A DNA stretch of 64,000 nt, taken from Rhea pennata (Eukaryota; Chordata; Aves; Rheiformes; Rheidae). The notes under the pieces are model-generated. The model saw nothing but the letters and a program-made list of their open reading frames with translations. It did no database searches and had not been told where the DNA came from. Below, piece by piece: positions 3,396-64,000 of the stretch (positions are counted from its first letter, which is position 1; the number at the start of each line of letters is the position of its first letter). Position numbers and translations under genes: made by a program. The stretch is taken from assembly GCF_028389875.1 (NCBI RefSeq), contig NW_026907703.1:186001-250000 (forward strand), in the 5' to 3' direction.

Positions 3396-3418
3396 TTGCT
3401 CTGTCTCGGTTCAGGGCA

Positions 3419-13400: not shown

Positions 13401-14486
13401 GCCAGACGCCTGCTCTGTAGGGCAGCTTCTCCCTCTGCCTGGTCCGTGAGGCCCTGCTGCCTTCAGCCCCGTGGTCGCTGCTCCCGTGCAATGCTGCTGT
13501 CAGGAAATGCTCCCCAGAATCACTTGCAGGCCTTTCCCCAGCCCCTGTGACAGGCACGTGCTGTGATGGTGACTGTGATCTCTTCCTGAGTCCCTGATGG
13601 GCCAGCGTCAGCCTCACGGCTGTAAGCGCAGACCTGGAGTGTGACTTGGGGCTTCTTCCTCAGGACAGGCTTGCACCCCTGCACCAGTCTCTGAGGGAGT
13701 CCAGGTAGAATTTTTATGCTGCTAAATGGATTAAGAGAAGGTGCGAGCAGTGACATTGGGAATCTCTGATTTCCAGTGTCTGTGTGCAGGAGAAAACTCT
13801 GCCCCATCAAAAGCATAGGGGGCTGCTGAGCTTTTTCTCCAAGATGTGGATGATATCTCTGAGGGGTGATGTGTCCTGAGGGTCCCCTAGCTGCAGCCAT
13901 GGCTGGTCGTGTGCCCTGTGTATCCCTGATGTATAGCTGCATGTTGGGTGGCAGCCCTCTGTGAGGTGAGGAGCAGGCATGTGGTGTGTCAGAGTGGTGG
14001 GGTACCTTGTGGTGGGGACAGATGATACCCCAGTGTCCTGGTGCTCATCACAGGAGGAGGTGTCTGGAGAGAGCAGTGCTGTTTCTGAGGAATGCCTTAG
14101 GCTGAGGGGATGAGGATCACTGTGTGGTGAGGAGGTGGCTTGGCTTGTAGGAGCCAGGTACCTTGATGGTGTGAGCCAGAGATGCTGGCAGCCTGCTGCC
14201 TTCTCTGCGATGAGGTTCAGCCCTTGGGTTTCCTCAGCTCTTGCCAGGATGTGCAGGCAGGATGCCGCCTAAAGGGCAGGGAGTGTTTCTGCCTGCTCTG
14301 AAGTGTGAACCAAGACTGCTTTTTCCCTTTCTGCTCGCTTGCTTTTCTTCATGAGAGCTTTCCCCTGCAGCAGTGCTTGCTGAGGGAGGAGAGGGCCATG
14401 TGTGTTGCTCATTGCTGGCTGGGCGTTAGTGTGCTGGAAGCTCCTTGGAGGAGTGAAAGCTTTGCAGAGAGAGGGTCTTTGTATAC

Positions 14487-14496
14487 GGGTAAGTAT
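14487..14496 (+). promoter_or_regulatory. Candidate 5' splice site downstream of CpG segment A
   Basis: GGGTAAGTAT matches the vertebrate donor consensus closely (GT at 14,489-14,490). It is retained exactly in copy B (GT at 35,366-35,367). It lies about 1.1 kb beyond the CpG promoter-like segment. It could end a first exon of a non-coding or unrecognised transcript. This is motif evidence only. Confidence 0.3.
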
Positions 14497-15879
14497 GTTC
14501 CTAGGAGGTGAATTGCAAGGTGCTGCTCCCCTGCTGTGCCAGATCTCCCTAGACAAGGAGTCCCTTTGAGTAGGCAAGCCAAGCAAGAGTGCCCTGCGAG
14601 GGCTGCACCTCTCCTCCTCCCAGCTGCAGTCTCTGAATTCTATCATCCTGCTGTCTGTGCTGCAGCAGGGACAGAAGAGAGCAGCCCATGTGCAGGCAGG
14701 AGTGTGCTAGGTGTGGTGTTGTTAGACGCTGCCACTGCTGACATGGGCAAGGCGCTGTGTTTTCTCCTGAGCCTTGGATGGGTGTGAGGAGCCCCACTTA
14801 GCTCTAGATGCATTGCTGCAAGTTGCTGGAGCCTAGGGAGTGGTGGTGAGCACAGCTGTCATCCAAGGAAGTTGCCATCTTTTGGTCAGGCACTGAGGAC
14901 CTTGTGTGCTTGAAGCCCTAAATGCTTGGTGTTTTCTACTTGAGCACTTTTAGAGTTGCCCCTCCTTTTTTGAGGGGAGAGTCCCAGAGCTTTTGCAGTG
15001 TAACCACTCTTGTTTTCGATCTCGTTCCTGCTGCGGCCTGAGGGGATAGTCTCCCTGCAGTGCTGAGAAGTCAGGGTGCCCATGAGGTGAGCACTGAGGG
15101 TCAAATTCTTTGTAAGAGAGGAAAGAGAAATGGTCCTTCCTCCAGCCTGCCCCCTCTTGCTGGTTTAGAGTACAGTGTCTTTCACCAAAAATGGGTAAAA
15201 ACAAGCTTGGCTCTCCCACATCTGCTATGAGGCATGTCGGGAGGCAGTGTGTCACAGCGCAGTGGGTGCCCTGTGGTGGGGGTGTGGGCCCCAGTGTGTT
15301 GGTGCTGTGTGCAGGAGGAGGTGTCTGGAGGGAGCAGTGCTATGGGAGCCCTGCCAGGCAGGGAGAAGGGAGCACTGCAAGGTGAGGACCTGACTGCACT
15401 CCCAGGGCCCAATGTGCCATCACAGTGTCCTTCTTGGGGGTGTGATGTGGGGATTGTTGGTGACCGTGTTCCCTCCTTGGAGCACCCCCGTATGACCCAG
15501 AGATGCTCACTGTTTGCTGATACCTTAATGACTTTCTGTTGAATCCGGACACTCATTGCATCTTCCCATGCCAGTCACTAAGCCATTCAAGTCCTTCAGA
15601 GAGATGGGGAGTTACTCAAATGAGTCAGAGCCATTTCTCCTCTTTGTGCCTGCCCAGACCCTTACAGATAGTGGTGTGATACCTCAGAAGAAGTCAGGCC
15701 TCTTGGGGTGATGGGTGGCTTTACGGTGCCTGTCTTTGGTCAGCACTCAAGGTGGCAGCTCCAAAGCCACTGGTCACTTGGGAATGCAGTCCTAAAGTAG
15801 CAAATGTATTGAGCCTGCAATGCTGGAGGACCTGTGGAGGTGGGGTTCCAGCAGCCTGATCAAGGCATGGCCCAGAGGG

Positions 15880-16080
15880 TGACGATGCTCCAGTCCTTGT
15901 CCCATCAAGTTCTGAGTATCTCCAAGGGTGAAGAGTCACAATCTCTCTGGGCCTTCTCTTGCCTGGGCTGAACATACCCAGCTCTTCCAGCCTCTCCTCA
16001 TCTGCCCCATGCTTCAGCCCCTGACCATCATGGTGTCCTTGTGCTGGACTTCCTCTTGTGTGTCAGTGCCTTTCAGGAAC
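15880..16080 (-). mobile_element. CR1 LINE fragment, minus strand (in copy A)
   Basis: Read on the plus strand, 'gttctgagtatctccaaggg', 'cacaatctctctgggcc' and 'ggctgaacatacccagctct' are reverse complements of the CR1 ORF2 3' part. The fragment is decayed and is present at the matching place in copy B (36,760-36,960), so it predates the duplication. Confidence 0.6.
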
Positions 16081-17979
16081 TGGGAAGCTCAGACAAGACC
16101 AAGCATCCAAAAAAAGGGTCTTAGTTTTGCCAAAACCAAGAGTCCAGTGTCTGCAAGGGCCCAGCTGTCTGTGCTCTGATGATTGTTCAGTTCAGTACAG
16201 AGGGGAGACATTTGCCCTTGGCTGCTGTGACTATGTAAGGCCAGCAGAACTGATGATAACCCTCCAATTCTTTCTTTCTAGGTTGCTCTAACCATGTAGG
16301 CTCCAAGTGCAGTTCCAGTGCCCGCACGGATGGAGGGAGGATGCCAGGGTGCATCCCTGTAGCTGTCAACATCTTTGCAAACATCGTGACCCTCTGAAAG
16401 CAGTTGCGAGTGAGTGAGGTGAGGCTACATATGGATGCGAAGGCTCCCCTCAATGCACCTGGCTGCCATGGGTGACAGGGTGTGAGATCACCTCCTGGTA
16501 CCTCTGCTCTCCTTCTGCTTCCTCATGCCACAAAAGCTGTTACTACTGGCCTGCTCAGCGAATGCTGTTGTGCCCCCTCTTTCCTATGGGGCCTATAAAA
16601 TGGCCATTAAGAGGAATTAAAGACTCTTCTCATGAAGTGCATCATGTCTTGAAGGCCCATGTCTAAGTGCCTGAAAGCCTCCTGTGTGTGAGCTGAGGAA
16701 GTCTCACAGTGCTTGGGCTTCTCACTCTGCAAGGGATGAAGATGTGCCCAGTGCCGGGCAACCTGTGGCACTAAGGCATCAGCCAGGGCCCCGTGAACCC
16801 AAGTGCAGAGGCAGGTCTCCCGCTCCAGAGCCTGTGCCCCCAGGGCAGCCTGCATTTCAGCAGAGGTCCAGTCTGGGGTGGTCTCCTTGCTGGAGCCTCG
16901 TTTCAAAGCATCTGCACCCTTTCTCCCTTCACAGAGCCTCCCTGTCCAACTAATGAAAGGAAAGGGACAGAGGTTGCTTTGTGCTCAGGAGACGTGCAGG
17001 ACCTCCAAGCATTTCTGAGTTGTGTCTGTAACTTCGGCATTACAAAACAAATCCCCCAACCCTTGTCCCCAGGTGGAGGTTCATGGCATGGTGGGGTCCA
17101 GGGATGAGGCAGCAGCCTGCTGTGCCCACAGAGAGCAGCATCCTTCTCTCCGAAAGCAGCAGCATTGCCCAAGGAGCTTTGCTGTGGCCCTGGTCTTGTG
17201 CTCAGGTTTTTCCACATGCCTTGTGAGCCCAGAGTGCCTTGGCCACCTTCTGGTGTCACCACAAGAGCTTCAGTGTATGTCTGGGCTGAGGAGCCAGGGG
17301 AAGGCAGGAGCAGAGCAGTGCCTGGGGAGTGTGCAAGTGGCGAGTGTCTTGCATCCTGAAGGGAATTGCTTTGGGGATTTGTTGTGCCTGTGGCTTTGGT
17401 GTGGTAATCCAAAGAGCTGTGCAGACAGGCAGACTCATGGCTGTTTCTAACGGAAGACCAGTTGTCTTTAAGTTACTGTTGATTTTTCCTGCCTTGAGGA
17501 CACACCCTGGGAAACTGCTAGTCCCCTCCTGCTGCATAGACCTGTCCCAATGGCTCTTGTGTCTGGAGAGAGTTTGTTGCTAGCATTTTAAGGAAGCTGC
17601 TCTTTCCCCCCTCTCCTGCTCTCTCTGACAAGAGGGAGAAGAAGCAACAGCCATATGGCTGCAGATTTGGGAAAGCCTCACTTGTCTCCCATGGGAGCAA
17701 CCAGTGGGCTGCTCACCTTCCGTACTGGGGAGAAGTGGTGAGAGACATGCCACCCAAGAAACACAGCTCTAAGCAGTGGGTTCACAAGAGACCTGGGAGC
17801 ACAGATGTCCCCCTGTTATCTCTGAAGTACAAATGAAAAGTTTAAGACACGCAGTCACATCTGGCCATTCTAGCATGCCTGACTTCCCTGAGTACTTCAT
17901 ACACCAGCAGAAGGTGGCAGGCCATGAAAGCAGCCAGGCCGAACATTGCTTGGATGCTGAGAGTGACTTTTTTCCCCTG

Positions 17980-19050
17980 GTGTGCCTGATAGGTCAGTTA
18001 AAGGCACATGTATGATATGTGTGCCTATAAAGTCACTTGGGACTATGTTCATGACAGGTCAGTAGAAGGCATGTTCCTTGGATGTTGCTTGTGAGGTCAC
18101 TTTGATCTCTGGGGTTGATCGACCATCAGCAGGCTCTTGGTTGGTGCAGGGTCCTGTGATTTCACCTCTGTGTATTCTCCAATTAAGCAGAAAACCGATT
18201 AATAGCTTCAGTGTGAACTTTGAGGTCCTTTCTGCCTGAGTGCCTGATAGGCCAGCAGCAGGCTCATGGGGAGGATGGGTGCTTGTGAGGTCCCTTTATC
18301 CTCAGTACCTGATAGGTGAGCTGCAGCACCTGGCTTGGGTGCTGACTGTGAGGTTACTTCTGCCTCAGCACCTCATGGGCCAGGAGGAGGCACCTACCTG
18401 CTGCTTGTGCAGATTGGGAGGTGCTTCTGCCTCAGTCCTTGATAGGCCAGCAGCAGGCACATGGCTTTGAGTCTGAGTGTGAGCTCAGTGGTGCCTCGGT
18501 GTGGGATAGGCCAGTAGCAGGCACATTGCTGCTGCTGACATTTTGTTAGGTCAATGGTGACTCAGTAGCTGATAGGGCAGCTGCAAGGACACGGCTTCAG
18601 GGCTTAATGTGAGGCCCCTTTTCAATCCATACCTGGTAGGCCAGCATCAGGCCCATTACTGCTGGCTGTCTCAGTGAGGATGTTGTGCCTGAGAACCTGA
18701 GAGAGCAGCCGCGTGCACGTGGCTTTGGTGATGATGCTGAGGTCATTGTGTCTCAAGACGTGCTAGACCAGGAGCTGGCACCTTGCTGCTGTTTGTTCTT
18801 GTGGGGTCCTTTCTGCCTCAGCCCCTCACTGGCCAGCACAGGCATATTGGTGCGGTTAACGCTTGTAAAGCGTTGCCTCAGTCCCTGATGGACCGGGAGC
18901 GGTCACATGGCTTTGATGAAGGTGGTGAGGTCACTTGTGCCTGTGGCCGTGGTAGGTCAGTGCCAGGCCCATGGCTGCTGTTTGTGCTTGTGAGGTCACT
19001 TCAACCTCAGTACCTGGTAGACCAGCAGGAGGTACATGGCTGTGACGCAG
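17980..19050. repeat. ~65-bp degenerate tandem repeat, block 1
   Basis: Units of roughly 60-75 bases recur around the phrases 'tgataggccagcagcaggca', 'catggctt', 'gtgaggtcac' and 'ttctgcctcag'. About 15 diverged units can be followed, including starts near 18,245, 18,435, 18,510, 18,565, 18,637, 18,835 and 18,950. Some are interrupted, for example by the 'gatcgaccatcagcaggctc' stretch at 18,117. Related blocks lie at 38,850-39,520 and 44,440-45,180. There is no coding sense. Confidence 0.75.
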
Positions 19051-39520: not shown

Positions 39521-42446
39521 GTTGTCTTGGTTACTGCCCTTTTCCTACCTTTGATCCTTCCCTAAACACTCCATAGTACGTCTTGCACCATTCCAAAATG
39601 ACTCTCATACACCCATAGGCAGTAACTCCCATCCTCAGTCTGCAAGGCCATCCTGGGAGGCTCTCCCATTGGGTGTATGTGAGTCTTAAACACGGATATG
39701 TTGGACCTGCTCTGAACGAATGTTTCTCCTCAGTAATTTGTGATCATTTCTCTGAAAACAGGGTGATTCATGTCCTAGAAATGCCAATTCTTCCTCTTTC
39801 TTTCTTAGGGAAGTGTGAGGAGTTAGGTCAGATTAAAATGCTGTGTGGGTTATATGTGTAATCCCACCTGACCACGATAAATGTCCTGAGGACATCAACT
39901 CCATAGTACATTTCCTTGCACTGATCATAACTGATAGGGGCCATAGCATCCATAGATCTAACTTACTAAGACCTTCTCAACCTCTTTGTGCCTCCGCTCC
40001 CCCCTGCAAAAGGATGTGTCAGACATTCAGGAGCCAAGATCTAAAACAAATTAAAGTGATGGAAGTGCAAGCCAGGCAGACAATAGCACTATTTAAAAGT
40101 TTAAACGACAACTAACATATTGAGCAGCAATTGTGCACTGAGATTAAAGGCATGCTGGAGGATTTTATTGAACACCATCTGAAGGATGCCTAGGGACTCT
40201 TTGGGTGCATCCAGGTATCTGGAAGGCATTTTGGATACTCTCCAGTGTGCTACCATCACAGTACAGTGATCCTCCAGAGCAGGATGTGAGTGTCACGTCA
40301 TGCCAAACTGAGTATCTCAGATTGTGGTCTAGGCTCACTTTGTCATCATTAGAGAGACAGCGGAAGAATCTGGAAGATGATCTGTCTTCTTCTGAGGGAG
40401 ACACAGAAATAAGCCCAGTGAATCAGTCTGCTCCTTTTCCTGCTAGTAGTCAGCAAGTCAGTTTAGAAAAGATGTTACCTCAGATCCTTGTTCTACCCTG
40501 ATCCCCTTCCCTAGACATTCCTTCGTCAGTTTTGCACATTCCCTCAAGCACTTCTCAAATATCCAAAGCCTTCATGTCTTCTTTCCCACTTCTTACCTAT
40601 TATGAAGTCTAGGTTGGCCCTCTCCAAAGCTATGCTTGTACTTTCTTCATGGCCCATCAGTTAATGACTGGGGAATGTTGGTCTCGGCATCATCTCTGTT
40701 ACTCCTTGTCTATCATGTTTGTGTCTATGTGGTTGTCCTAAATGCTTTCTCTTTACTTATTATCCCTTTTGCACTGGAAAGGTCTGAGACCAGATAGTCT
40801 TCATGGAGCAGATGCTCTCACATTATGCATACCCTTACGTCAGGCAGACAAGCGTACTGACCAGCAGCTTGTTGACATGGAACTGCTCCCTTTCTTTGCC
40901 CCTCCCTTCCATTTCACCATTCTTCCTCTTCTTGATTCCCCTGGATCTCCTCTTTTCCCCACTTTTGGCCTTCTTCCTGGACATCCCAGCATAAGCTTTC
41001 TACACTCCCATAATCCTCATAAAACATGCCAGACCAAACTCTGGGCAGTGTGACAGCCTCTCTCCAATATCCCCAGAAGAGTCTCCCCTTTCCCAGGAGA
41101 CCCCGGATAATTTTGTGCCCTTGTGATCAGTTAATGGATCGGGGCTTGATCCTCTGCAGGTCCGTAGTGGGAAGGTTTACTCAGTGCCCATCCATCAGTG
41201 ACCTGAGAGCTCTGGTCTCTGTCATCTGCTGCTCAGTACTCTAGAGGGCTGGTTGCTATTCATAGGAACCTCAACGCACTGCAGATTTGGGCTGGCTGGA
41301 GCCTCCTAAATTCAGGCAAGGAAAGGAGAGAGTCTTGAACCTGGGGTGGGATAACCCAGTAGCCCTGTGCAAAAGGTGAGCGCACGCTTGACTGGTGAGA
41401 GATCAGCTTTTCAGAAGAGGACTTGTGACTCTTGGTGAGAAAGCTGAAGAGGATTCAGGAGTGTTTCTTGGTGGCAAATACCATCAAGTAGGATGAGACT
41501 CCCACGGTCCCATAGCACAGGGAGATAAAGGAGTTGAGATGCGTGGGGAATGTGGTCCCCAGGCCCACCCCTGTCCTAGGCTCTGGAGGACTGGTAAAAG
41601 CTTTGCAATAGGAACGAGGGCTGGGGAGAGAAGCCTGATGCTCCAAGAGTAAAGGAGTTGGGAGGAAGGTTGATAGTGCCATCTCCCTACAAGAAGGTGA
41701 TGGGTGAGGAGCAGAGCTGCAGCTGGAGAAGAACAGCTGGAGTGGGTTTTGCTGTTCCCTCAGTAGACAGGGACAGTGTGGAAGAGGGAGGCCCAGGTGT
41801 TGCTTGAATCTCTTTTCCCAGCCCTCAGCAACAGGAACTGCCTGCCTCACTCAGGCTTCTCCATTTCCTCTTGCTGCTGGAGAAGGCATGACTGCTCACC
41901 CCATCCAACCACTTGTTGTAACCCTAGCTGGTCCTTGAGGTTGTGCCAAGCCAAAGGAGGGAATATAGTTGAGGTGGGTTTAACCCACCTGAGCCTCCAA
42001 ACAGAAACGGCACATTTTCCCTTAGAAGTCCAGAGAGATGTAATATTCACTGCCGGCTGACATGCCAGCTTCTACCCTAGAAATGTGCAATGCTGAGGGA
42101 GATGTCTCCCATCTCAGGGACCAAAAGCAAGATGGATCCCCCCAGGCGTGCCTGTGGAAGGAATTCATCTGCCATCCCAAATTTATTCCTTCCAGATTCT
42201 CCGAGAAAGAAAACAGTTGATACATGTAGGAATACCACACTCCTTATTATCAAAGAAAAAGTTAATGCATGACCTTTTTAACTTTCTTTTTCTAAAATAA
42301 GAGCATTTCTTTCCACAGAGCTTTCCCTTTCCTCCCATTAGCACTCCACAGGCAATCTCAAGGCTGCACACTTCTAAAGAGGTCTTGCAGTACACAGTAC
42401 TTGGCTTTGTAGAAGTTGTTTGTGCCCATTTCAACTGGCATGACCT
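39521..42446. other. No recognised gene; single-copy sequence
   Basis: This stretch has no paralogue elsewhere in the window and is less GC-rich than its surroundings. Open frames (for example 98 codons at 40,205-40,501 plus, with acidic-serine text DDLSSSEGDTE) do not match a family I recognise. No RNA gene was seen. Confidence 0.5.
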
Positions 42447-43392
42447 CTAGGTACCACCCAAATCTTTCCTGAGTGCTTTCCTCAGGGCCTTCCTGAGCTC
42501 CTTGCTCTGCAGACTGTAGGTGAGGAGATTGACCAGGGTGGTGAGGATGGTGTAGAAGAAGGAGAACACCTTGTTGAGCTGTCTGAGTCTGGGGTTCTGG
42601 GCAGCATGTAGACAATGATGAGGGTGCCATAGAAAACAGTGATGACAGTGAGGCGCGAGGAGCAGGTGGAGAAGGCCTTCTGCGTGCCCATGCTGGAGGG
42701 GATCCTCAGGATGGCAATTATGATGGACACGTAGGAGGCCAGCGTGATCAGGAAGGGGAAGACTGAATCCAGGAGAGTCAGGATGAAAGTTACTGTTTTA
42801 ACTACACTGGTGTCAGTGCAGGCGAGCTCTGACAAAGGAGTAAAATCACAGAAGAAGTTGTCAGTTGCAGCAGGGCCACAGAACTTTAACCTTGATAAGA
42901 AGACGGTGGCTATTATAGAAAACACCAAACTCCTGGCCCAGACCCAGCTGCCATCAGGAGACCAACCTTCCAGGTTATGAGGCTTGCATAGAGCAGGGGC
43001 TGGCGTATGGCCAAGTACCGATCATAGGACATGGATGCCAGCAGGAAACATTCTGTAGCTGCAAAACCAATGAAGAAATAGAGCTGAGTCATACAACCCT
43101 GAGCAGAGATAGTCCTGTCCCCAGTCAGGAAGTTGGCCAACAGCTGGGGCACGATGGTGGAGCTGTAGCACGTCTCTAGAAAGGACAGATTGCCCAGGAA
43201 GAAGTACATGGGGCTGTGCAGATGCTGGTCTGCCACCACCAGCACAACAACGAGGCTGTTCCCAACCACGGTCACCAAGTAGATCAGGAGCAAGAGGAGG
43301 AAGAGTGGTGTGTGGAGTGAGGGGATGTTCCCCATTCCCAGCAGGAGGAACTCATTTGGTGATGTGCTGTTATTCCCTTTCTCTTTCTCCGT
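42447..43392 (-). pseudogene. Olfactory receptor pseudogene, non-OR14 class II (OR6/10/11-like)
   Basis: The text is recognisably OR but from a different family from the others in the window. TM1 has VVGNSLVVVLVV, TM2 has LHSPMYFFLGNLSFLE, the DRY region reads MSYDRYLAIRQPLLYA, before TM6 is QKAFSTCSSRL, and the end is LVNLLTYSLQSKELRKAL. The LSFLETCYSSTIVPQLLANF stretch suggests an OR6/OR10/OR11-like receptor. Defects: the codon where the start is expected is ACG (43,390-43,392) followed by in-frame EKEKGNNSTSPNEFLLLG. A frameshift lies near 42,950, another near 42,585, the usual Cys after LAI is Arg, and NPLIY has become NLLTY. The tail stop is at 42,447-42,449. It is non-functional. Confidence 0.9.
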
Positions 43393-43828
43393 ATGATGTT
43401 GTATGTGTACAACATTGACAAGGGTGACTATGAACTACTTGACGCCTTCTGTGCTCTTCAGCCATGTTTCCTAGGGCCGCACCTCAGTCTACCATGTCTC
43501 TATTCTTTCCCTCGCATAACAGAGCAGAACTGTGAAGAAAGAACTGAGTCTAAGGAAATGCCAGGCCAAAAATCTGGGCATCTGAGGGAAAGAGTAAGTA
43601 TGTGCGTGAGAGCTCACAGCACAAGTCTGGAAAAGCCAAGTGGCAGTGACCCTGCTGAGGTGCCAAAGATCCCAAGCCCTGAGCCGCAGGGCTGGATTCG
43701 GCCTCCTTTACTTGTGGTGTGGACTCCTGACATATTGCACAGAGTAAAATAAATTTCTGTGGGAGAAGTGGAGGAATAAAGTAGAAATGATTCAAAAGAG
43801 GGAGATTCGGGTCAGGAGTCTCAGCACT
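43393..43828. other. No recognised gene
   Basis: Upstream side of the OR pseudogene. No splice acceptor resembling the OR14 one was found, and no other element was recognised. Confidence 0.45.
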
Positions 43829-44150
43829 AAACATCGCTAACTATAGGTTATAGGTTAATAGGTACATTTACCACTTCTCTGGAAAGGCTTTTTCTTCCAT
43901 GACCAGCAGCACCTGAGGGCATGCTCCTGATGGACTCCCATAAGCACTCAAGATGTTCTGTGCAGCCAGCTGGAGGGGCACAATGGGACCTAGCCCTTCC
44001 TGTTCCTCCCAAGCATGTTGTTTGAGGAAGTGCTGGAAGAGCAGGCCTGACAGGATCCACATGGCACTGCACTGCCTGGGGCTGTGATAACAGCCTTGCA
44101 TACACTTCCTGGGCCAGACCTTTGAAGACAAGCAACCAACAGTGCTTATG
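43829..44150. repeat. Inverted ~310-bp duplicate of the satellite-flanking sequence
   Basis: The reverse complement of this segment matches 50,520-50,832, the last unique DNA before the satellite array. Shared text includes 'agcactgttggttgcttgtc', 'caggcagtgcagtgcca' and 'aacaacatgcttggga' in the orientation of the right copy. Here the sequence continues past the point where the array starts in the other copy, giving an array-free reference. One extra 16-base block ('ttaacctataacctat' in the minus orientation) is present here. Confidence 0.85.
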
Positions 44151-44439
44151 GGAGGATGCCTTCCTGATGGGCAAGGAGAGCTCAGGTTCTTGTCACCCTG
44201 CTGTAGAGGAGCTGGCAGCTCCAAGGACTGAGGGGAAGAGGAACAGGTCCCATAGCTCATGAGGTGAAGGTGCTGACATGTGCCTTTTGCCAGGTCCCTG
44301 CTACTTCCTACTCCCTTTCCCAGCTCCTGGAAAGCCACTGCAGGAGCAAGCAAATCCTGGAGAACACCATTCCCTGGGTTTGTGTGAGTGAATGACATGG
44401 TGACCTGTGTGTGAGAACATGACAGGCCAGCACCAGGGA

Positions 44440-50519: not shown

Positions 50520-50832
50520 ACTGCCGTAAGCACTGTTGGTTGCTTGTCTCCAAGTGCCTAGTCCAGGAAGTGTGTGCAGGGCTGTTCTCACAGCCCCAGG
50601 CAGTGCAGTGCCATGAGGATCCTGTCAGGCCTGCTCTTCCAGCACTTCCTCAAACAACATGCTTGGGAGGTACAGGAAGGGCTAGGTCCCATCTGTGCCC
50701 CTCCAGCTGGCTGCACGGAACATCTTCAGTGCTTATGGGAGTCCATCAGGAGCATGCCCTCAGGTGCAGCTGGTCATGGAAAAAATGGCCTTTCCAGAGA
50801 AGTGGTAAATGTACCTATAGTTAGAGATGTTT
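50520..50832. repeat. Last unique DNA before the satellite; inverted duplicate of 43.83-44.15 kb
   Basis: See the entry at 43,829. Homology with that copy runs through 'cctatagttagagatgttt' and stops at 50,832. The next bases are 'ggatgtttgatagaatg', which already have satellite character. The array therefore abuts this element directly. Confidence 0.85.
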
Positions 50833-50939
50833 GGATGTTTGATAGAATGTTTGTGATGCGATAGACTGTGACGCGATAGAATGTGATGCGATAGAATGGT
50901 TGTGACGCGACAGAATGTGACGCTATAGAATGTGACGCG

Positions 50940-53700
50940 ACAGAATGTTTGTTACGGCATAAAATGTGACGCGATAGAATGTTTGTGACAGAATAGAATG
51001 TCACGCAATAGAATGCTTGTGATGCAATAGAATGTGACACCACAGAATGTGATGCAACAAATGTTGTGACGTAAAAGAATGTTTGTGATGCGATAGAATG
51101 TGTTGTGAGAGAATGTTTCTGACACGATAGAATATTTGTGACGATGCAGAATGTTTAAGATGCTATAGAATGTGACGCGATAAAATCTTTGTGACGCGAT
51201 AGAATGTGATGCCATAGAATGTGACGGAATAGAATGTTTGTGACGCGATAGAATGTGACGCGATACACTGCTTGTGACGCGATAGATTGTGACGCGATGG
51301 AATGTGATGCGATAGAATGGTTGTGATGCGATAGAATGTGCTGCGATAGAATGTGACGCAATAGAATGTGACGCGCTAGAATGTTTGTGACACGATAGAA
51401 TGTTAGTGACGCTATAGATTCTTTGTGATGCGATAGAATGTGATGTGAGAGAATGTTTGTGACACGATAGCATGTTTGTGACATGACAGAATGTTTGTGA
51501 TGCGATAGAATGTGACTAGATAGAATGTGACGTGATAGAATGTGACGCGATAGAATGTTTGTGATGCGATAGAATATGACGCGATAGAATATTTGTGGCA
51601 TGATGGAATGTGACGCCATAGAATGTGATGAGATAGAATGTTTGTGACACGATAGAATGTGACGTGATAGAATATTTGTGATGCGACAGATTGTGACGCG
51701 ATAGAATGTGATGCGATAGAATGGTTGTGACGCTATAGAATGTGACTCGATAGAATGTGAAGCGTTAGAATGTGACGCGATAGAATGTGACGCGAAAGAA
51801 TGTTTGTGATGCGACAGAATGTGATGCGATAGAATGTGGCGCATGGAATATGACGCGATAGAATGTTTGTGATGCGATAAAAGTGACGCTATAGAATGTG
51901 ACGCGGTAGAATGTTTGTGACGCGATAGAATCTTTGTGATGCGATAGAATGTGATGCGAGAGAACGTTTGTGACGCTATAGAATGTTACGCGATAGAATG
52001 TGACGAGACAGAATGTAACGCCTTAAAATGTGATGCGAAAGAATGTTTTTGACGACAAAGAATGTGACGCAATAGAATGTAAATGATGCGATACATTGTG
52101 ACGCGATAGAATGTGATGCGATAGAATGTGACGCGATAGAATGTGACGCCATACAATGTTTCTGACGCGATAGAATGTTTGTGAAGCGATGGAATGTGAC
52201 GCAATAGAATGGTTGTGACGGCATAGAATGTGACACTATAGAATTTTTGTGACGCGATAGATTGTGAGGCGATAGAATGTGATGCGATAGAATGTTTGTG
52301 ATGCTATACAATGTGATGCGATAGAATGTGACGCGATAGAATCTGACGCCATAGAATGTGATGCAGTAGAATCTTTGTAACGCGATCGAATGTTATTGAC
52401 ACGATAGAATCTTTGTGATGCGATAGAATGTGATGTGATAGAATGTTTGTGACACGATTGAATGTTTGTGACACCACAGAATGTTTGTGATGCGTTGGAA
52501 TGTGATGTGATAGAATGTTTGCGACGCGATAGAATATTTTTGTATGCGATAGAATGTGACGCAATAGAATGTTTGTGATGCGATAGAATGTGATGCGATA
52601 GAATGTGACGCAGTAAAATGTTTGTGACGCGATAGAATGTTAGTGACGCGATAGAATGTTTGCGATGCGATAGAATGTGACGCCATAGAAATTTTGTGAC
52701 GCGATAGAATGTGACGCAAAAGAATGTGACGCGATAGCATATTTGTTACAGCATAGAATGTGACGCGATAGAATGTTTGTGATGCGATCAAATGTGATAC
52801 GATAGAATGGGATGCGATAGAATGTTTGTGACCTGATAGAATGTGACGCGATAGAATGTGACGCGATAAAATGTTTGTGACGCAATAGAATGTGACGCTA
52901 TAGAATGTGACGCGACAGAATGTTTGTGACGGCATAGAATGTGACGCGATATACTGTTTGTGGCGCAATAGAATGTCACGCAATAGAATGCTTGTGATGC
53001 AATAGAATGTGACGCGATAGAATGTTGTGACGTAACAGAATGTTTGTGATGCGATAGAATGTGTTGCGAGAGAATGTTTCTGACACGATAGAATATTCGT
53101 GACGACGCAGAATGTTTAAGATGCGATAGAATGTGACGCGATAAAATCTTTGTGACGTGATAGAATGTGATGCCATAGATTGTGACGGAATAGAATGTTT
53201 GTGATGCGATAGAAAGTGACGCGATACACTGTTTGTGGCGCGATAGATTGTGACGCGATAGAATGTGATGCGATAGAATGGCTGTGATGTGATAGAATGT
53301 GCTGCGATAGAATGTGACACGATAGAATAGGACGCGATAGAATGTTTGTGACGCGATAGATGTTAGTGACGCTATAAATTCTTTGTGATGCGATAGAATG
53401 TGACGCGAGAGAATGTTTGTGAAACGATAGAATGTTTGTGACATGACAGAATGTTTGTGATGCGATAGAATGTGACTAGATAGAATGTGACGTGATAGAA
53501 TGTGACGCGATAGAATGTTTGTGACACGATAGAATATGACAAGATAGAATATTTGTGGCATGATGGAATGTGACGCCATAGAATGTGATGAGATAGAATG
53601 TTTGTGACACGATAGAATGTGACGTGATAGAATATTTGTGATGCGATAGATTGTGACGCGATAGAATGTGATGCGATAGAATGGTTGTGACGCGACAGAA
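50940..53700. repeat. Older higher-order duplication in the array (~1.96-kb offset)
   Basis: About 50,940-51,735 matches 52,905-53,697 with an offset of 1,960-1,965. Shared rare variants include 'gtcacgcaatag' followed by 'aatgcttgtgatgc', 'gatgctatag/gatgcgatag' after 'aatgtttaa', 'gacatgacag' (51,481/53,441) and 'gactagatag'. Many substitutions separate the copies, so it is older than the 4.3-kb duplication. A further block, 51,101-51,373, recurs at 54,599-54,871 (offset 3,498) with almost no change. Confidence 0.8.
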
Positions 53701-54930
53701 TGTGACGCGATAGAATGTACGTGACGCGATAGAATGTGATACGACAGAATGTGACGCGATAGAATGTTTGTTATGCGATAGAATGTGATACGATAGAATT
53801 TGACGCGACAGAATGTTTGTGACGCGATAGAATGTTCTGAGATAGAATGTTTGTGACGGAACAGAATGTCACGCAATAGCATGCTTGTGATGCAATAGAA
53901 TGTGACACCACAGAATGTGACACGATAGAATGTTTGTGATGCGACACAATATGACGCAATAGAATATGACACGATAGAATGTATGTGATGCAATAGAGTG
54001 TTAGTGGCGCGATATAATGTGACGCTATAGAATCTTTGTGATGCTATAGAATGTGATGCGATAGAATGTTTGTGGTGCGACAGAATGTGACGCCATGGAA
54101 TTTTTGTGATGCGATAGACTGTGACGTGATAGAATGTGACCCGATAGAATGTTTGTGATGGCACAGATTGTGACGCTACAGAATGTTTTTGACGTGATAT
54201 AATGTCGCGGAACAGAATGTTTGTGATGTGATAGAAGGTGACGTGATAGAATGTGACGCGATAGAATGTTTGTGACGCGATAAATGCGACACCATAGAAT
54301 GTTTGTGATGCGATAGAATGTGACGCCATAGAAATTTTGTGACGCGATAGAATGTGACGCAAAAGAATGTGACGCGATAGCATATTTGTTACAGCATAGA
54401 ATGTGACACGATAGAATGTTTGTGCCGCGATAGAATGTGAGAATATAGAATTTGATGTGATTGAATGTTTGTGATGCATAGACTATGACACGATAGAATG
54501 TTTGTGATGCGATAGAATGTGATACGATAGAATGTTTGTGATGCGATAAAATGTGAAACAAAGAATGTGACGCGATAGAATGTTTGAAACACAAAATGTG
54601 TTGTGAGAGAATGTTTCTGACACGATAGAATATTTGTGACGATGCAGAATGTTTAAGATGCTATAGAATGTGACGCGATAAAATCTTTGTGACGCGATAG
54701 AATGTGATGCCATAGAATGTGACGGAATAGAATGTTTGTGACGCGATAGAATGTGACGCGATACACTGCTTGTGACGCGATAGATTGTGACGCGATGGAA
54801 TGTGATGCGATAGAATGGTTGTGATGACATAGAATGTGCTGCGATAGAATGTGACGCAATAGAATGTGATGCGATAGAATGTTTGTGACCCGATACAATG
54901 TCTGTGACGCGATAGAATGTCTGTGATGCA

Positions 54931-57900
54931 ATAGAATGTGATGCGATAGAATGTCTGTGATGCGATAGAATGTGATGCAATAGAATGTTGCGCGACAGAA
55001 TGTGATGCGATAGAATTTTTGTGACACGATAGAATGTTTGAGACGCGATAGAATGTCTGTGATGCAATAAAATGTGACGCGATAGAACGTTTGTGACGCG
55101 ATAGATTGTGACGCGATAGAATGTGAAGTGATAGAATGCGAGGCGATAGAATGTTTGTGACACGATAGAATGTCTGTGACGTGATAGAATGTTTGTGATG
55201 CGATAGAATGTGACGCAATAGAATGTTCCGCGATAGAATGTGACGCGATAGAATGTTTGTGACACAATGGAATGTGACGTGATAGAATGTGACGGCATAG
55301 GATGTGATGCGATACAATGTTTGTGACGCGATAGTATGTGACGCGATAGGATGTTTGTGATACGATAGAATGTGACGCGATAGGATGTTTGTTACGCGAT
55401 AGAATGTGACGCAATAGAATGTGATGTGATAGAATGTTTGTGATGCGATAGAATTTTTGTGACTCGATAGAATGTGACGCAATAGAATGTTATGCGATAG
55501 AATATGACGCGATAGAATGTTTGTGACACAATTGAATGTTACGTGATAGAATGTGACGCGATAGAATGTGACGCGATAGGATGTTTGTGACATGATAGAA
55601 TGTTTGTGACGCGATACAATGTCTGTGATGCAATAGTATGTGACGCGATAGAACGTTTGTGATGCGATAGAATGTGACGCAATAGAATGTTACGCCATAG
55701 AATGTGACGCGATAGAATGTGATGCGATAGAATGTTTGTGACACGATAGAATGTTTGTGACGCGATAGAATGTCTGTGATGCAATAGTATCTGACGCGAT
55801 AGAACGTTTGTGACGCGATAGAATGTGACGCAATAGAATGTTGTGCGATAGAATGTGACGCGATAGAATGTTTGTGACACAATGGAATGTGATGTGATAG
55901 AAAGTGACGGCATAGAATGTGATGCGATAGAATGCTTTTTACGCGATAGAATGTGATGCAATAGAATGTGACGAGATAGAATATGACGTGATAGGATGTT
56001 TGTGATGCGATAGAATATGACGCAATAGAATGTGACACGATAGAATGTTTGTGACACAATGGAATGTGACGTGATAGAATGTGCCGCGATAGAATGTGAT
56101 GCGATACAATATTTTTGACACGATAGAATTTTTGTGACGCGATAGAATGTGACGCGATAGACTGTGACGCGATAGAATGTTTGTTACGCGATAGAATGTG
56201 ATGCGATAGAATTTTTTTTACGCGATAGAATGTGACGTGATAGAATGTTTGTGACGCGATAGATTGTGACGTGATAGAATGTTTGTGACGCGATAGAATG
56301 GTTGTGACGGCATAGAATGTGACGCGACAGATCATTTGTGATGCGATAGTATGCGATGCGATAGAATGTGACGTGATAGGATGTTTGTGACGCCATATAT
56401 TGTGACGCGATAGATTATGATGCGTTAGAATGTTTGTGACACAATGGAATGTGACGTGATAGAATGTGACGGCATAGAATGTGATGCGATAGAATATTTT
56501 TGACACGATAGAATGTTTGTAACGCGATAGAATGTCTGTGATGCAATAGAATCTGACGGGATAGAATGTTTGCGATGCGATAGAATGTGACGCGATAGAA
56601 TGTTACGCCATAGAATGTGATGCGATGGAATGTTTGTGACGCGATAGAATGTGATGCGATAGAATGTGACACGATAGAATGTGACACGATAGAATGTTTG
56701 TGACGCGATAGAATGTTTGTGACGCGATAGAATGTGATGCGATAGAATTTTTGTGACGCGATAGATTGTGACGCGATAGAATGTTTGTGACACGATAGAA
56801 TGTGTGTGACGCGATAGAACATTTGTGATGCGATAGAATGTGACGCGATAGAATGTTTGTGACACAATGGAATGTGACGTGATAGAATGTGACGCGATAG
56901 AATGTGATGCGATAGAATGTTTGTGACGCGATAGAATTTTTGTGACGCTATAGAATGTGATGCAATAGAATGTTATGCGATACAATGTGACGCGATAGAA
57001 TATTTGTGACGCGACAGAATGTGATGCGATAGAATGTGACGCGATACAATGTGACGCGATAGAATATTTGTGACACGATAGAATGTGACACGATAGAATG
57101 TGAAGCGACAGAGTGCTTGTAATGGCATAGAATGTGACGCGATAGAATGTTGCGCGATAGAATGTGACGCGATCGAATGTTGCGCGATAGAATGTGACGC
57201 GATCGAATGTTTGTGACACAATGGAATGTTATGCGATAGAATGTGACGCGATACAATGTTTGTGACACAATGGAATGTGACGTGATAGAATGTGACGCGA
57301 TAGAATGTGACGCAATAGAATGTTATGCGATAGAATGTTTGTGACGCGATAGTATGTGATGCGATAGAATGTGACACGATAGAATGTGACGCGATAAAAT
57401 GTGACGCGATAGGATGTTTGTTACGCGATAGAATGTGATGCGATAGAATGTGACGCGATAGAATGTTTGTGACACGATAGAATGTTTGTGACGCGATAGA
57501 ATGTCTGTGATGCAATAGAATGTGACGGGATAGAATGTTTGTGACGCAATAGAATGTTACGAGATAGAATCTGACACGATAGAATGTTTGTGACACAATG
57601 GAATGTGACGTGATAGAATGTGACGGCATAGAATGTGATGCGATAGAATGTTTGTGACGCGACAGAATTTTTGTGACTCGATAGAATGTGATGCAATAGA
57701 ATTTTATGCGATAGAATGTGACGCGATAGAATATTTGTGACACAATGGTATGGTACGTGATAGAATGTGACGCGATAGAATTTGATGCGATAGAATGTTT
57801 GTGACATGATAGAATGTTTGTGACGCGATACAACGTCTGTGATTCAATAGTATGTGACGCGATAGAACGTTTGTGATACGATAGAATGTGACGCAATAGA

Positions 57901-59239
57901 ATGCTACGCCATAGAATGTGATGCGATAGAATGTTTGTGACATGATAGAATCTTTGTGACGCGATAGAATTTTTGTGACTCGATAGAATGTGATGTGATA
58001 GGATGTTTGTGATGCGTTAGAATATGACGCAATAGAATGTGACACGATAGGATGTTTGTGACACAATGGAATGTGACGTGATAGAATGTGATGCGATACA
58101 ATATTTTTGACACGATAGAATTTTTGTGACGCGATAGAATGTGACGCTTTAGAATGTTTGTGACACGACAGAATGTTTGTGATGCGATAGAATGTGATGC
58201 GATAGAATTTTTGTTACGCGATAGAATGTGACGCGATAGAATGTTTGTGACGCTATATATTGTGACACGATAGATTGTGATGCGTTAGAATGTTTCTGAC
58301 ACGATAGAATGTCTCTGACGCGATAGAACGTTTGTGATGCGATAGAATGTGACGCAATAGAATGTTGCGCGATAGAATGTGACGCGATAGAATGTTTGTG
58401 ACACAATGGAATGTGACGTGTTTGAATGTGACGCGATAGAATGTGATGCGATAGAATGTTTGTGACGCGATAGAATTTTTGTGACGCTATAGAATGTGAC
58501 GCAATAGAATGTTATGCGATAGAATGTGACGCGACAGAATGTGATGCGATAGAATGTGACGTGATACAATGTGACGCGATAGAATATTTGTGACACGATA
58601 GAATGTGACGCGACAGAGTGGTTGTAATGGCATAGAATGTGACGTGATAGAATGTGATGCGATGGAATGTTTGTGACCCGATAGAATGTCTGTGACGCGA
58701 TAGAATGTCTGTGATGCAATAGAATGTGACGTGATAGAATGTCTGTGATGCGATAGAATGTGATGCAATAGAATGTTGCGCGACAGAATGTGATGCGATA
58801 GAATTTTTGTGACACGATAGAATGTTTGTGATGCAATAGAATGTCTGTGGTGCAATAGTATGTGACGCGATAGAACGTTTGTGACGCGATAGAATGTCTG
58901 TGACGTGATAGAATGTTTGTGACGCGATAGTATGTGATGCAATAGAATGTGACATGATAGAATGTGACGCGATAGAATGTGACGCGATAGAATGTTTGTG
59001 ACACAATGGAATGTGAAATGTTAGAATGTAACGCGATAGAATGTGATGCGATAGAATATTTTTGACACTATAGAATGTTTGTGACGCGATAGAATGTCTG
59101 TGATGCAATAGAATGTGACGGGATAGAATGTTTGTGACGCGATAGAATGTCTGTGACGCAATAGAATGTTACGAGATAGAATCTGACACGATAGAATGTT
59201 TGTGACACAATGGAATGTGACGTGATAGAATGTGACGGC
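54931..59239. repeat. 4,309-bp higher-order satellite unit, copy 1
   Basis: From 54,931 every variant tile recurs exactly 4,309 bases later, without an indel, up to about 59,263/63,572. Three substitutions were found by eye: 55,611 G against 59,920 A, 57,254 C against 61,563 G, and 57,397 A against 61,706 G. That is about 99.9% identity. At the left edge, 54,930 (a) against 59,239 (c) ends the match. Confidence 0.93.
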
Positions 59240-62200
59240 ATAGAATGTGATGCGATAGAATGTCTGTGATGCGATAGAATGTGATGCAATAGAATGTTGC
59301 GCGACAGAATGTGATGCGATAGAATTTTTGTGACACGATAGAATGTTTGAGACGCGATAGAATGTCTGTGATGCAATAAAATGTGACGCGATAGAACGTT
59401 TGTGACGCGATAGATTGTGACGCGATAGAATGTGAAGTGATAGAATGCGAGGCGATAGAATGTTTGTGACACGATAGAATGTCTGTGACGTGATAGAATG
59501 TTTGTGATGCGATAGAATGTGACGCAATAGAATGTTCCGCGATAGAATGTGACGCGATAGAATGTTTGTGACACAATGGAATGTGACGTGATAGAATGTG
59601 ACGGCATAGGATGTGATGCGATACAATGTTTGTGACGCGATAGTATGTGACGCGATAGGATGTTTGTGATACGATAGAATGTGACGCGATAGGATGTTTG
59701 TTACGCGATAGAATGTGACGCAATAGAATGTGATGTGATAGAATGTTTGTGATGCGATAGAATTTTTGTGACTCGATAGAATGTGACGCAATAGAATGTT
59801 ATGCGATAGAATATGACGCGATAGAATGTTTGTGACACAATTGAATGTTACGTGATAGAATGTGACGCGATAGAATGTGACGCGATAGGATGTTTGTGAC
59901 ATGATAGAATGTTTGTGACACGATACAATGTCTGTGATGCAATAGTATGTGACGCGATAGAACGTTTGTGATGCGATAGAATGTGACGCAATAGAATGTT
60001 ACGCCATAGAATGTGACGCGATAGAATGTGATGCGATAGAATGTTTGTGACACGATAGAATGTTTGTGACGCGATAGAATGTCTGTGATGCAATAGTATC
60101 TGACGCGATAGAACGTTTGTGACGCGATAGAATGTGACGCAATAGAATGTTGTGCGATAGAATGTGACGCGATAGAATGTTTGTGACACAATGGAATGTG
60201 ATGTGATAGAAAGTGACGGCATAGAATGTGATGCGATAGAATGCTTTTTACGCGATAGAATGTGATGCAATAGAATGTGACGAGATAGAATATGACGTGA
60301 TAGGATGTTTGTGATGCGATAGAATATGACGCAATAGAATGTGACACGATAGAATGTTTGTGACACAATGGAATGTGACGTGATAGAATGTGCCGCGATA
60401 GAATGTGATGCGATACAATATTTTTGACACGATAGAATTTTTGTGACGCGATAGAATGTGACGCGATAGACTGTGACGCGATAGAATGTTTGTTACGCGA
60501 TAGAATGTGATGCGATAGAATTTTTTTTACGCGATAGAATGTGACGTGATAGAATGTTTGTGACGCGATAGATTGTGACGTGATAGAATGTTTGTGACGC
60601 GATAGAATGGTTGTGACGGCATAGAATGTGACGCGACAGATCATTTGTGATGCGATAGTATGCGATGCGATAGAATGTGACGTGATAGGATGTTTGTGAC
60701 GCCATATATTGTGACGCGATAGATTATGATGCGTTAGAATGTTTGTGACACAATGGAATGTGACGTGATAGAATGTGACGGCATAGAATGTGATGCGATA
60801 GAATATTTTTGACACGATAGAATGTTTGTAACGCGATAGAATGTCTGTGATGCAATAGAATCTGACGGGATAGAATGTTTGCGATGCGATAGAATGTGAC
60901 GCGATAGAATGTTACGCCATAGAATGTGATGCGATGGAATGTTTGTGACGCGATAGAATGTGATGCGATAGAATGTGACACGATAGAATGTGACACGATA
61001 GAATGTTTGTGACGCGATAGAATGTTTGTGACGCGATAGAATGTGATGCGATAGAATTTTTGTGACGCGATAGATTGTGACGCGATAGAATGTTTGTGAC
61101 ACGATAGAATGTGTGTGACGCGATAGAACATTTGTGATGCGATAGAATGTGACGCGATAGAATGTTTGTGACACAATGGAATGTGACGTGATAGAATGTG
61201 ACGCGATAGAATGTGATGCGATAGAATGTTTGTGACGCGATAGAATTTTTGTGACGCTATAGAATGTGATGCAATAGAATGTTATGCGATACAATGTGAC
61301 GCGATAGAATATTTGTGACGCGACAGAATGTGATGCGATAGAATGTGACGCGATACAATGTGACGCGATAGAATATTTGTGACACGATAGAATGTGACAC
61401 GATAGAATGTGAAGCGACAGAGTGCTTGTAATGGCATAGAATGTGACGCGATAGAATGTTGCGCGATAGAATGTGACGCGATCGAATGTTGCGCGATAGA
61501 ATGTGACGCGATCGAATGTTTGTGACACAATGGAATGTTATGCGATAGAATGTGACGCGATAGAATGTTTGTGACACAATGGAATGTGACGTGATAGAAT
61601 GTGACGCGATAGAATGTGACGCAATAGAATGTTATGCGATAGAATGTTTGTGACGCGATAGTATGTGATGCGATAGAATGTGACACGATAGAATGTGACG
61701 CGATAGAATGTGACGCGATAGGATGTTTGTTACGCGATAGAATGTGATGCGATAGAATGTGACGCGATAGAATGTTTGTGACACGATAGAATGTTTGTGA
61801 CGCGATAGAATGTCTGTGATGCAATAGAATGTGACGGGATAGAATGTTTGTGACGCAATAGAATGTTACGAGATAGAATCTGACACGATAGAATGTTTGT
61901 GACACAATGGAATGTGACGTGATAGAATGTGACGGCATAGAATGTGATGCGATAGAATGTTTGTGACGCGACAGAATTTTTGTGACTCGATAGAATGTGA
62001 TGCAATAGAATTTTATGCGATAGAATGTGACGCGATAGAATATTTGTGACACAATGGTATGGTACGTGATAGAATGTGACGCGATAGAATTTGATGCGAT
62101 AGAATGTTTGTGACATGATAGAATGTTTGTGACGCGATACAACGTCTGTGATTCAATAGTATGTGACGCGATAGAACGTTTGTGATACGATAGAATGTGA

Positions 62201-63572
62201 CGCAATAGAATGCTACGCCATAGAATGTGATGCGATAGAATGTTTGTGACATGATAGAATCTTTGTGACGCGATAGAATTTTTGTGACTCGATAGAATGT
62301 GATGTGATAGGATGTTTGTGATGCGTTAGAATATGACGCAATAGAATGTGACACGATAGGATGTTTGTGACACAATGGAATGTGACGTGATAGAATGTGA
62401 TGCGATACAATATTTTTGACACGATAGAATTTTTGTGACGCGATAGAATGTGACGCTTTAGAATGTTTGTGACACGACAGAATGTTTGTGATGCGATAGA
62501 ATGTGATGCGATAGAATTTTTGTTACGCGATAGAATGTGACGCGATAGAATGTTTGTGACGCTATATATTGTGACACGATAGATTGTGATGCGTTAGAAT
62601 GTTTCTGACACGATAGAATGTCTCTGACGCGATAGAACGTTTGTGATGCGATAGAATGTGACGCAATAGAATGTTGCGCGATAGAATGTGACGCGATAGA
62701 ATGTTTGTGACACAATGGAATGTGACGTGTTTGAATGTGACGCGATAGAATGTGATGCGATAGAATGTTTGTGACGCGATAGAATTTTTGTGACGCTATA
62801 GAATGTGACGCAATAGAATGTTATGCGATAGAATGTGACGCGACAGAATGTGATGCGATAGAATGTGACGTGATACAATGTGACGCGATAGAATATTTGT
62901 GACACGATAGAATGTGACGCGACAGAGTGGTTGTAATGGCATAGAATGTGACGTGATAGAATGTGATGCGATGGAATGTTTGTGACCCGATAGAATGTCT
63001 GTGACGCGATAGAATGTCTGTGATGCAATAGAATGTGACGTGATAGAATGTCTGTGATGCGATAGAATGTGATGCAATAGAATGTTGCGCGACAGAATGT
63101 GATGCGATAGAATTTTTGTGACACGATAGAATGTTTGTGATGCAATAGAATGTCTGTGGTGCAATAGTATGTGACGCGATAGAACGTTTGTGACGCGATA
63201 GAATGTCTGTGACGTGATAGAATGTTTGTGACGCGATAGTATGTGATGCAATAGAATGTGACATGATAGAATGTGACGCGATAGAATGTGACGCGATAGA
63301 ATGTTTGTGACACAATGGAATGTGAAATGTTAGAATGTAACGCGATAGAATGTGATGCGATAGAATATTTTTGACACTATAGAATGTTTGTGACGCGATA
63401 GAATGTCTGTGATGCAATAGAATGTGACGGGATAGAATGTTTGTGACGCGATAGAATGTCTGTGACGCAATAGAATGTTACGAGATAGAATCTGACACGA
63501 TAGAATGTTTGTGACACAATGGAATGTGACGTGATAGAATGTGACGGCATAGAATGTGATGCGATAGAATGT
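59240..63572. repeat. 4,309-bp higher-order satellite unit, copy 2
   Basis: Tandem, direct copy of the preceding unit. The crossover between copies lies within the 24 bases 59,240-59,263, which match both 54,931 onward and 63,549-63,572. After 63,573 the sequence departs from copy 1, so there is no complete third copy in this phase. Confidence 0.93.
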
Positions 63573-63754
63573 TTGTGACGCGATAGAATTTTTGTGACTC
63601 GATAGAATGTGACGCAATAGAATGTTATGCGATAGAATGTTTGTGACGCGATAGTATGTGATGCGATAGAATGTGACACGATAGAATGTGATGCGATAGG
63701 ATGTTTGTGATACGATAGAATGTGACGCGATAGAATGTGACGCGATAGAATGTC

Positions 63755-64000
63755 ATGCGATAGAATATTTTTGACACGATAGAATGTTTGTAACGCGATA
63801 GAATGTCTGTGATGCAATTGAACCTGACGGGATAGAATGTTTGCGATGCGATAGAATGTGATGCGATAGAATGTTACGTGATAGAATGTGACGCGATAGA
63901 ATGTGATGCGATAGAATATTTTTGACACGATAGAATGTTTGTAACGCGATAGAATGTCTGTGATGCAATTGAACCTGACGGGATAGAATGTTTGCGATGC
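63755..64000. repeat. 151-bp local tandem duplication at the window edge
   Basis: The stretch beginning 'gatagaatatttttgacac' recurs with a period of 151 bases (for example 63,761 and 63,912), including the rare 'gatgcaattgaacctgac' variant. 151 equals four long plus five short tiles (76 + 75). The second copy runs off the window. Confidence 0.8.

Follow-up and report, generated by a model that had tools for sequence, protein, structure and literature searches.

The window analysed here, a 64,000-bp stretch of the Rhea pennata genome (C166:186001-250000, contig NW_026907703.1), contains olfactory receptor (OR) genes and, from position 50833 to its end at 64000 on the plus strand, the proximal 13,168 bp of a satellite array built head-to-tail from tiles of 15 and 19 bp. 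The assembly searched comprises 1.27 Gb in 180 contigs. The complete array runs unbroken for 40,357 bp (C166:236833-277189), with successive tile-match starts no more than 89 bp apart. An earlier note on this DNA had described it as over 13 kb and unterminated; the size stands, but the array does end, at C166:277189, with 13.2 of its 40.4 kb inside the window.

Structure of the 15/19-bp array

Dynamic-programming tiling divided 50833-64000 into 790 tiles, of which 453 measure 15 bp and 325 measure 19 bp (together 778/790), the other 12 having different lengths. The 15-bp tile reads TGTGACGCGATAGAA, and the 19-bp tile is TGTGACGCGATAGAA plus four bases after TG, the two consensus sequences being otherwise identical. 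The extension is TTTG in 235/325 and TCTG in 34/325 of the 19-mers, which is the previously noticed ttgt/ctgt in another rotation, and the mixture of a 15-base tile with the same tile plus four bases is borne out by the counts. Tiles diverge from the consensus by 10.3% on average, and TRF returned periods of 15, 34 and 49. Measured in 2-kb bins, G+C is 39-41% in the array and the skew of G over C is 0.43-0.46; bins lying before 50 kb have 48-62% G+C and skews from -0.07 to 0.16. CpG observed/expected is 2.2x in the array versus 0.15 in the preceding 50.8 kb. Open frames of up to 564 codons (52788-54482) occur on the minus strand, and a coding reading was rejected, as they reflect tile composition: the reverse complement of the tile is stop-free in all three frames, and these long frames are therefore not evidence of genes. 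No RNA genes were found by ARAGORN (bacterial settings) or Rfam (gathering scores).

The order of the two tile lengths is kept when blocks duplicate, as the earlier note had remarked: a 4,309-bp tandem duplication, with its first copy at 54931..59239 and its second at 59240..63548 (both plus strand), shows three substitutions between copies. There is, however, more to that order than irregularity, since two 19-mers tend not to adjoin. Across nine array pieces (from C8, C61, C138, C139, C146 and C149), a 19-mer was followed by a second one in 138 of 1,536 cases (next tile 15 or 19), though about 37% of tiles are 19-mers. Because 19-mers so rarely adjoin, the array seems to be based on a 34-bp dimer, supplemented by 15-mers, or on a 49-bp trimer. 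The corresponding count in the C166 and C150 pieces was 590/1,960, and triple 19-mer runs, common only in these pieces, read as part of a later higher-order unit. A random tile order was rejected: runs of four or more 19-mers fell below the shuffle mean in 13/13 pieces and below the lowest of 200 shuffles in 6/13 (6 runs in the longest piece against a shuffle mean of 30.9 and a minimum of 21), in a test where tandem duplications make tiles non-independent. The 15/19 rule holds in all 13 pieces, which come from 8 contigs, other lengths making up 0.8%-11.3% of tiles.

When nine duplicate pairs were aligned, 4-bp gaps appeared 18 times and 1-bp gaps 5 times. Three pairs were set aside, one with a non-corresponding first 2.5 kb (13 of the 4-bp gaps) and two that are nearly identical. 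The six remaining pairs (2.5-6.2% divergence) differ by 258 substitutions and by gaps of 4 bp (five), 1 bp (three, of which one is at an alignment end), 6 bp (one) and 14-34 bp (seven). Inspection by eye put each of the five 4-bp gaps where the extension sits, but some of them may pair non-corresponding tiles. The second tile length could have its source in the microhomology TGT-T-TGT, at which slippage would add or remove four bases at one fixed place.

Changes within the tile are concentrated at CpG. In the window, C9 is changed to T in 29.7% of tiles, G10 to A in 16.3%, C11 to T in 10.5% and G12 to A in 15.0%, while total change at the other positions is about 3-13%. Across the 13 pieces, CpG positions are changed in 22-30% of tiles versus 5-9% for the other positions, mostly C to T and G to A. 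This pattern fits germ-line deamination of methylated CpG, balanced by copying: a CpG-rich tile that is methylated in the germ line would lose CpG by deamination, and block copying would replace the lost sites.

The empty insertion site

The flank of the array is present twice in the window, in inverted orientation and about 6.4 kb apart. One arm (50521..50832, plus strand) leads into the array, which starts at exactly 50833; homology to the array-free paralog (43829..44154, minus strand, 93% identity), read from 44154 down to 43829, stops at 50832. The second arm leads into an OR sequence at 42482..43434 (minus strand; Pfam 7tm_4), probably broken since it lies in two overlapping frames, and then into a stretch at 39532..41975 (minus strand) which matches the arrays' distal flank at 85% identity. 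Comparison of filled and empty arms placed the insertion site in this uninterrupted arm, at 41972..41990 on the minus strand. The arm there reads AGGTGGGTTAAACCCACCT (41990 to 41972), a perfect 19-bp palindrome with one central base, AGGTGGGTT-A-AACCCACCT. On C149, the last base of an array's proximal flank corresponds to window base 41979; on C166 and C8, the distal flanks pick up again at 41975, so that filled sites lack three bases (CCC) of the palindrome. The insertion target contains TTAA.

In 16 of 17 fetched stretches the array starts at the same palindrome base (four on C8, three on C146, two each on C138, C139, C147 and C149, and one on C145); the seventeenth, on C8, fell short of the junction. 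Of the 16, ten belong to a set of 11 starts predicted by unit geometry only, and the other six had been pre-selected by the junction pattern. One further array on C149, beyond these stretches, has the same start base. The 17 stretches represent two flank lineages, for one of which sister arms were sought; in 13/13 predicted places (six on C8 and one each on C166, C138, C139, C145, C146, C147 and C149) the sister arm carries the intact palindrome and no tile. The tiles at the array edges are also alike across contigs. Since 10 of the 11 geometry-predicted starts share one base and all 13 sister arms are empty, one insertion followed by copying is indicated; a single insertion before spread would explain the shared start base, which repeated independent births would not.

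The left edge of the window's array was considered as the original edge and rejected. The second and third arrays of C166 have their proximal edge at the end of the 312-bp flank, and an edge of this type was found in 0/7 array arms on other contigs, being seen only on C166 so far. About 1.85 kb, corresponding to the interval between 43829 and 41975 that holds the OR sequence on the empty arm, is missing on the window's array arm. From these comparisons the left edge would be a derived deletion. On C138 and C146, about 0.3 kb is missing at a distal side.

The remainder of the window agrees with the earlier description of a large satellite beside OR genes, as Pfam 7tm_4 matches show. An OR gene at 2460..3410 (minus strand; 316 codons stop to stop; Pfam 7tm_4, E 1e-45) lies within a repeated OR block. 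A 7.4-kb block of the OR region at 11267..18671 (plus strand) is repeated at 32166-39527 with 91.3% identity, and many smaller direct and inverted copies surround these two blocks. A reverse-transcriptase fragment, which we take to be CR1-like, was found at 19844-20299 (RVT_1, E 9.8e-13). The Pfam assignments cover the window, where they place the genes at the level of the OR family only; elsewhere the presence of OR genes is inferred from flank homology.

Distribution and turnover of the arrays

A 34-mer joining one 15-bp and one 19-bp tile, searched with up to two mismatches, gave 6,220 matches in the genome (2,263 forward and 3,957 reverse), against none for the same pattern read backwards. 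Extrapolation from 999 matches in 157,235 bp of 13 pieces yields a satellite total of about 0.98 Mb, if the pieces are typical. Exact 34-mer matches occur on C8, C61, C138, C139, C146, C147, C149, C150 and C166, and an array on C145 was read directly, bringing the number of contigs to ten. Long head-to-tail arrays of one unit were found in the 13 pieces from 8 contigs. At least 51 matches to the flank at 50521-50832 are spread over ten contigs; 40 are long and the other 11 are pieces of 38 bp, and the total is a lower bound as 40 of 86 candidates were scored. The satellite family is real. The array on C61 lies 3.27 Mb inside a contig of 82.5 Mb and is more decayed (29.6% of CpG positions changed, 3.3 34-mers per kb); its distal boundary resembles the others, with three mismatches in the pattern, and it could mark an old fusion or an old copy.

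Contig C166 (408 kb) carries at least three arrays in one orientation: the first is cut by the contig start and ends at 3.3 kb, the second measures 36,702 bp (29.0 of 36.7 kb of its sequence was covered) and the third is that of the window. They are separated by spacers of 97,694 and 99,107 bp. On C8, four successive spacers, taken as junction-to-junction distances with their interiors sampled only, measure 130,296, 130,300, 130,306 and 130,320 bp, and are thus within 24 bp of each other, while the four arrays measure 39,086, 58,829, 62,067 and 42,908 bp. A large unit is therefore repeated in tandem on C8, as in a macrosatellite, with whole units varying because the arrays vary; from flank to flank the macro-repeat spans 136-192 kb on C8 and C166. 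About 4.15 kb of the first C8 array is free of tiles (C8:37534738-37538891), and the two ends of this interval share 231 bp at 98.7%, resembling an LTR element.

The distal flanks of C8, C138, C146 and C166 are 95.2-98.8% identical, and the flanks beside two C166 arrays are 97% identical. Arrays differ more than these surroundings because each array appears to turn over by unequal exchange or slippage. When alignments were scored strictly, 9/16 comparisons within the same array contained stretches of ≥400 bp at ≥93%, versus 3/75 between arrays, similarity being higher within than between arrays, as in satellites; C61 and the first array of C166 have no such stretch within themselves. Between arrays, the C166 neighbours share 41 stretches (the longest 729 bp at 93.7%), C138 and C146 share 966 bp at 98.8%, and C139 and C149 share 559 bp at 93.2%. 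The longest stretch shared within the window's array is 5,859 bp at 99.9%. As 150-bp stretches at 93% are common to 28/75 array pairs, the arrays are related throughout.

Duplications in the window's array are nested, those at offsets of 4,309 and 7,770 bp being 99.8-99.9% identical. Within its 40 kb, duplicated sequence at ≥98.5% occupies roughly the intervals 4.1-12.8 and 19.5-38.3 kb, with only older duplications in the first 4.1 kb, at 12.8-19.5 kb and in the last 2 kb. The outermost 15 tiles were the most diverged of ten bins at 4/7 edges (0.137-0.163), which leans weakly toward unequal exchange.

As to chromosomal position, C138 ends on the right, and C139 on the left, in telomere repeats (99 copies of TTAGGG in the last 600 bp and 97 of CCCTAA in the first 600 bp, respectively). 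One array on C138 has both edges 0.21-0.28 Mb from the telomere and further array extends down to 0.48 Mb; on C139, array edges lie 0.29-0.60 Mb from the telomere. Telomere repeats were seen on these two array contigs, among ends that did not include the right ends of C145 and C147; none was seen at the right end of C8, which has six distal array edges in its last 1.05 Mb. At the start of C142 lies a G+C-rich repeat whose units measure 22 and 65 bp. C138 and C139 may be the two ends of one chromosome, so the family is present at two chromosome ends at least.

Contigs C138, C145, C146, C147 and C149 each end on one side in other satellites, with a 288-bp unit at the starts of C138 and C147 and a unit of about 336 bp (inferred from two alignment registers) at the starts of C145 and C146 and the end of C149. 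These satellites might be centromeric, and the 15/19 arrays lie elsewhere on the contigs. On C138 and C139, the G-rich strand of the tile runs away from the telomere; on all five contigs that have a contig-end satellite, it runs toward that satellite. Copying between chromosome ends would give such a uniform polarity. The earlier note had offered a centromeric, a subtelomeric or another heterochromatic boundary position. The distances on C138 and C139, within the last few hundred kb before the telomere, support a subtelomeric place on at least these two contigs; a centromeric place is not supported, the arrays standing apart from the contig-end satellites, and the idea of a boundary fails as arrays alternate with OR-bearing spacers, at least three of them in the 408 kb of C166. 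The array may be heterochromatic.

Origin, relatives and significance

We propose that the satellite derives from one insertion, that it was subsequently copied with OR blocks as a component of a macro-repeat, and that its arrays turn over by unequal exchange, a reading to which we assign a probability of about 0.78. In the first step, which the empty site shows, a seed repeat entered a 19-bp palindrome on a single occasion and at a single base, and three bases were lost; the palindrome lies about 0.5 kb downstream of an OR gene. The OR block and its array would then have been copied in tandem and to other contigs, with the polarity kept, as expected for exchange between chromosome ends. Finally, the arrays would lengthen, shorten and homogenise as blocks of up to several kb slip or are exchanged unequally. 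For the last two steps the pattern is visible in the assembly, and the mechanism is what we infer from it. Most likely the array persists as a passenger for which no host function is required, and it may provide homology for further exchange.

Several observations weigh against this proposal. Only two array contigs have a sequenced telomere, possibly at the ends of one chromosome; the contigs are not necessarily different chromosomes; and the more decayed array of C61 lies 3.27 Mb inside its contig. Some junctions differ (the proximal ones of C166 and distal ones of C138 and C146), and the sister-arm evidence covers one flank lineage, with the second (seven arrays) outside it. Since the C166 neighbours have as many as 41 such stretches (≥400 bp at ≥93%) in common, turnover is faster than change in the flanks but incomplete. 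The edge signal is uneven: at the C149 edge the first bin is 0.134, with inner bins of 0.134 and 0.143, the truncated distal edges of C138 (0.099) and C146 (0.093) are not raised, and both C166 proximal edges, taken as derived, are. Near-identical duplications can also be assembly errors. Lastly, slippage must be rare or old because the 4,309-bp pair is without a length switch.

Among other explanations, the arrays might have grown in place from a tile-like sequence in each OR block, independently on each contig and with no insertion, which would account for the few long near-identical stretches shared between contigs. The empty arms contain no tile in any of the 13 places, however, all 10 predicted arms that were reached have one start base, and the edge tiles are alike between contigs; this explanation is already largely refuted, and we consider it very unlikely. 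A transposable element, inserted at the palindrome and expanded from its interior, would agree with one insertion at one base, with the TTAA in the target and with the behaviour of some transposons, whose internal tandem repeats expand. Yet examination of the junctions by eye revealed three lost bases instead of a target-site duplication, and no terminal inverted repeats, which makes an element of this kind improbable.

It is also conceivable that the two fixed tile lengths serve to space protein sites, for example those of centromere or heterochromatin proteins. Length is indeed far more constant than sequence in the window (10% divergence, yet only 12/790 tiles depart from the two lengths), and 19-mers seldom adjoin. 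Against such a role, tile order differs between contig groups, the C8 pieces have up to 11% of other lengths, array length varies widely, and the order is accounted for by one base dimer that all copies inherited; the sequence thus makes a functional array appear quite unlikely. That falsely repeated loops in the assembly graph produced the arrays is suggested by duplications which are nearly free of differences (3 in about 4,310), but the presence of the family on ten contigs, with different and internally consistent tile orders and shared boundaries, makes an artefact of this sort extremely improbable. A separate proposal concerns the consequences of the satellite: as the engine of OR expansion at these chromosome ends, it would multiply whole OR spacers through crossing-over inside arrays, and the pattern on C8, with spacers within 24 bp and arrays of 39-62 kb, is therefore predicted. 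We regard this proposal as tentative and somewhat doubtful.

Six tile 14- to 18-mers had no match in a literature search over 5.39 million full texts, which covers the texts of papers and not Repbase or Dfam, and no 15/19-bp bird satellite was named in titles or abstract starts among the matches listed. The earlier note knew of no described avian satellite with this unit, and the literature texts searched likewise contained none. The phrases 15 bp, 19 bp and 34 bp are absent from the main texts, as far as available, of PMC12651973, PMC10887557 and PMC11375038; the second gives units of 36-5,351 bp for the lapwing satellitome and the third 21-1,644 bp for that of thrushes. In the available part of PMC9974502, chicken dot chromosome 29 is described as carrying an OR29G amplicon with 386 intact copies in satellite-rich pericentromeric heterochromatin. 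This is the nearest described system found, at least in the accessible text, and shares with ours an amplified OR gene in satellite-rich sequence of a small bird chromosome (PMC9974502). For the satellite of that pericentromeric amplicon the text consulted states no unit. The arrays here, by contrast with its place, occur on ten contigs and, on C138 and C139, at 0.2-0.6 Mb from a telomere, and the gene is possibly a different one.

Similarly, PO41 of chicken and quail is, according to the portions seen of PMC4301066 and PMC3091757, a subtelomeric repeat with a 41-bp unit of 63% G+C. It resembles our family as a short-unit bird satellite that is subtelomeric on several chromosomes; the tiles here are of 15 and 19 bp with 40% G+C. 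Chicken also has the 41-bp CNM repeat and a 21-bp W satellite (TTTTC, five bases, GAAAA, six bases), as printed in the part of PMC9974502 consulted. These are likewise short-unit bird satellites with higher-order repeats, yet of other unit lengths; the printed 21-bp unit is not the tile, and the periods of 15, 34 and 49 include no 41-bp unit such as those of PO41 and CNM. The family is of a known kind and apparently undescribed.

Human subtelomeric duplicons contain OR genes, and we know of no comparable 40-kb satellite per unit in them. They consist of blocks common to chromosome ends, as stated in the available text of PMC2323237, and in this sharing of blocks among ends they are like the family reported here.

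What distinguishes this family is the record of its birth and spread, consisting of one insertion base, empty arms, near-constant spacers and variable arrays. Satellite births are rarely observed because the empty site is usually lost. Here the empty arm is intact at 13/13 places, and the insertion point, the erosion of edges, turnover and spread between contigs therefore become measurable in one genome. Even as a passenger, the family marks regions near chromosome ends which are often left broken in assemblies. If the engine proposal is true, one satellite insertion beside an OR gene would have started an OR gene expansion in a bird, linking a satellite to a sensory gene family.

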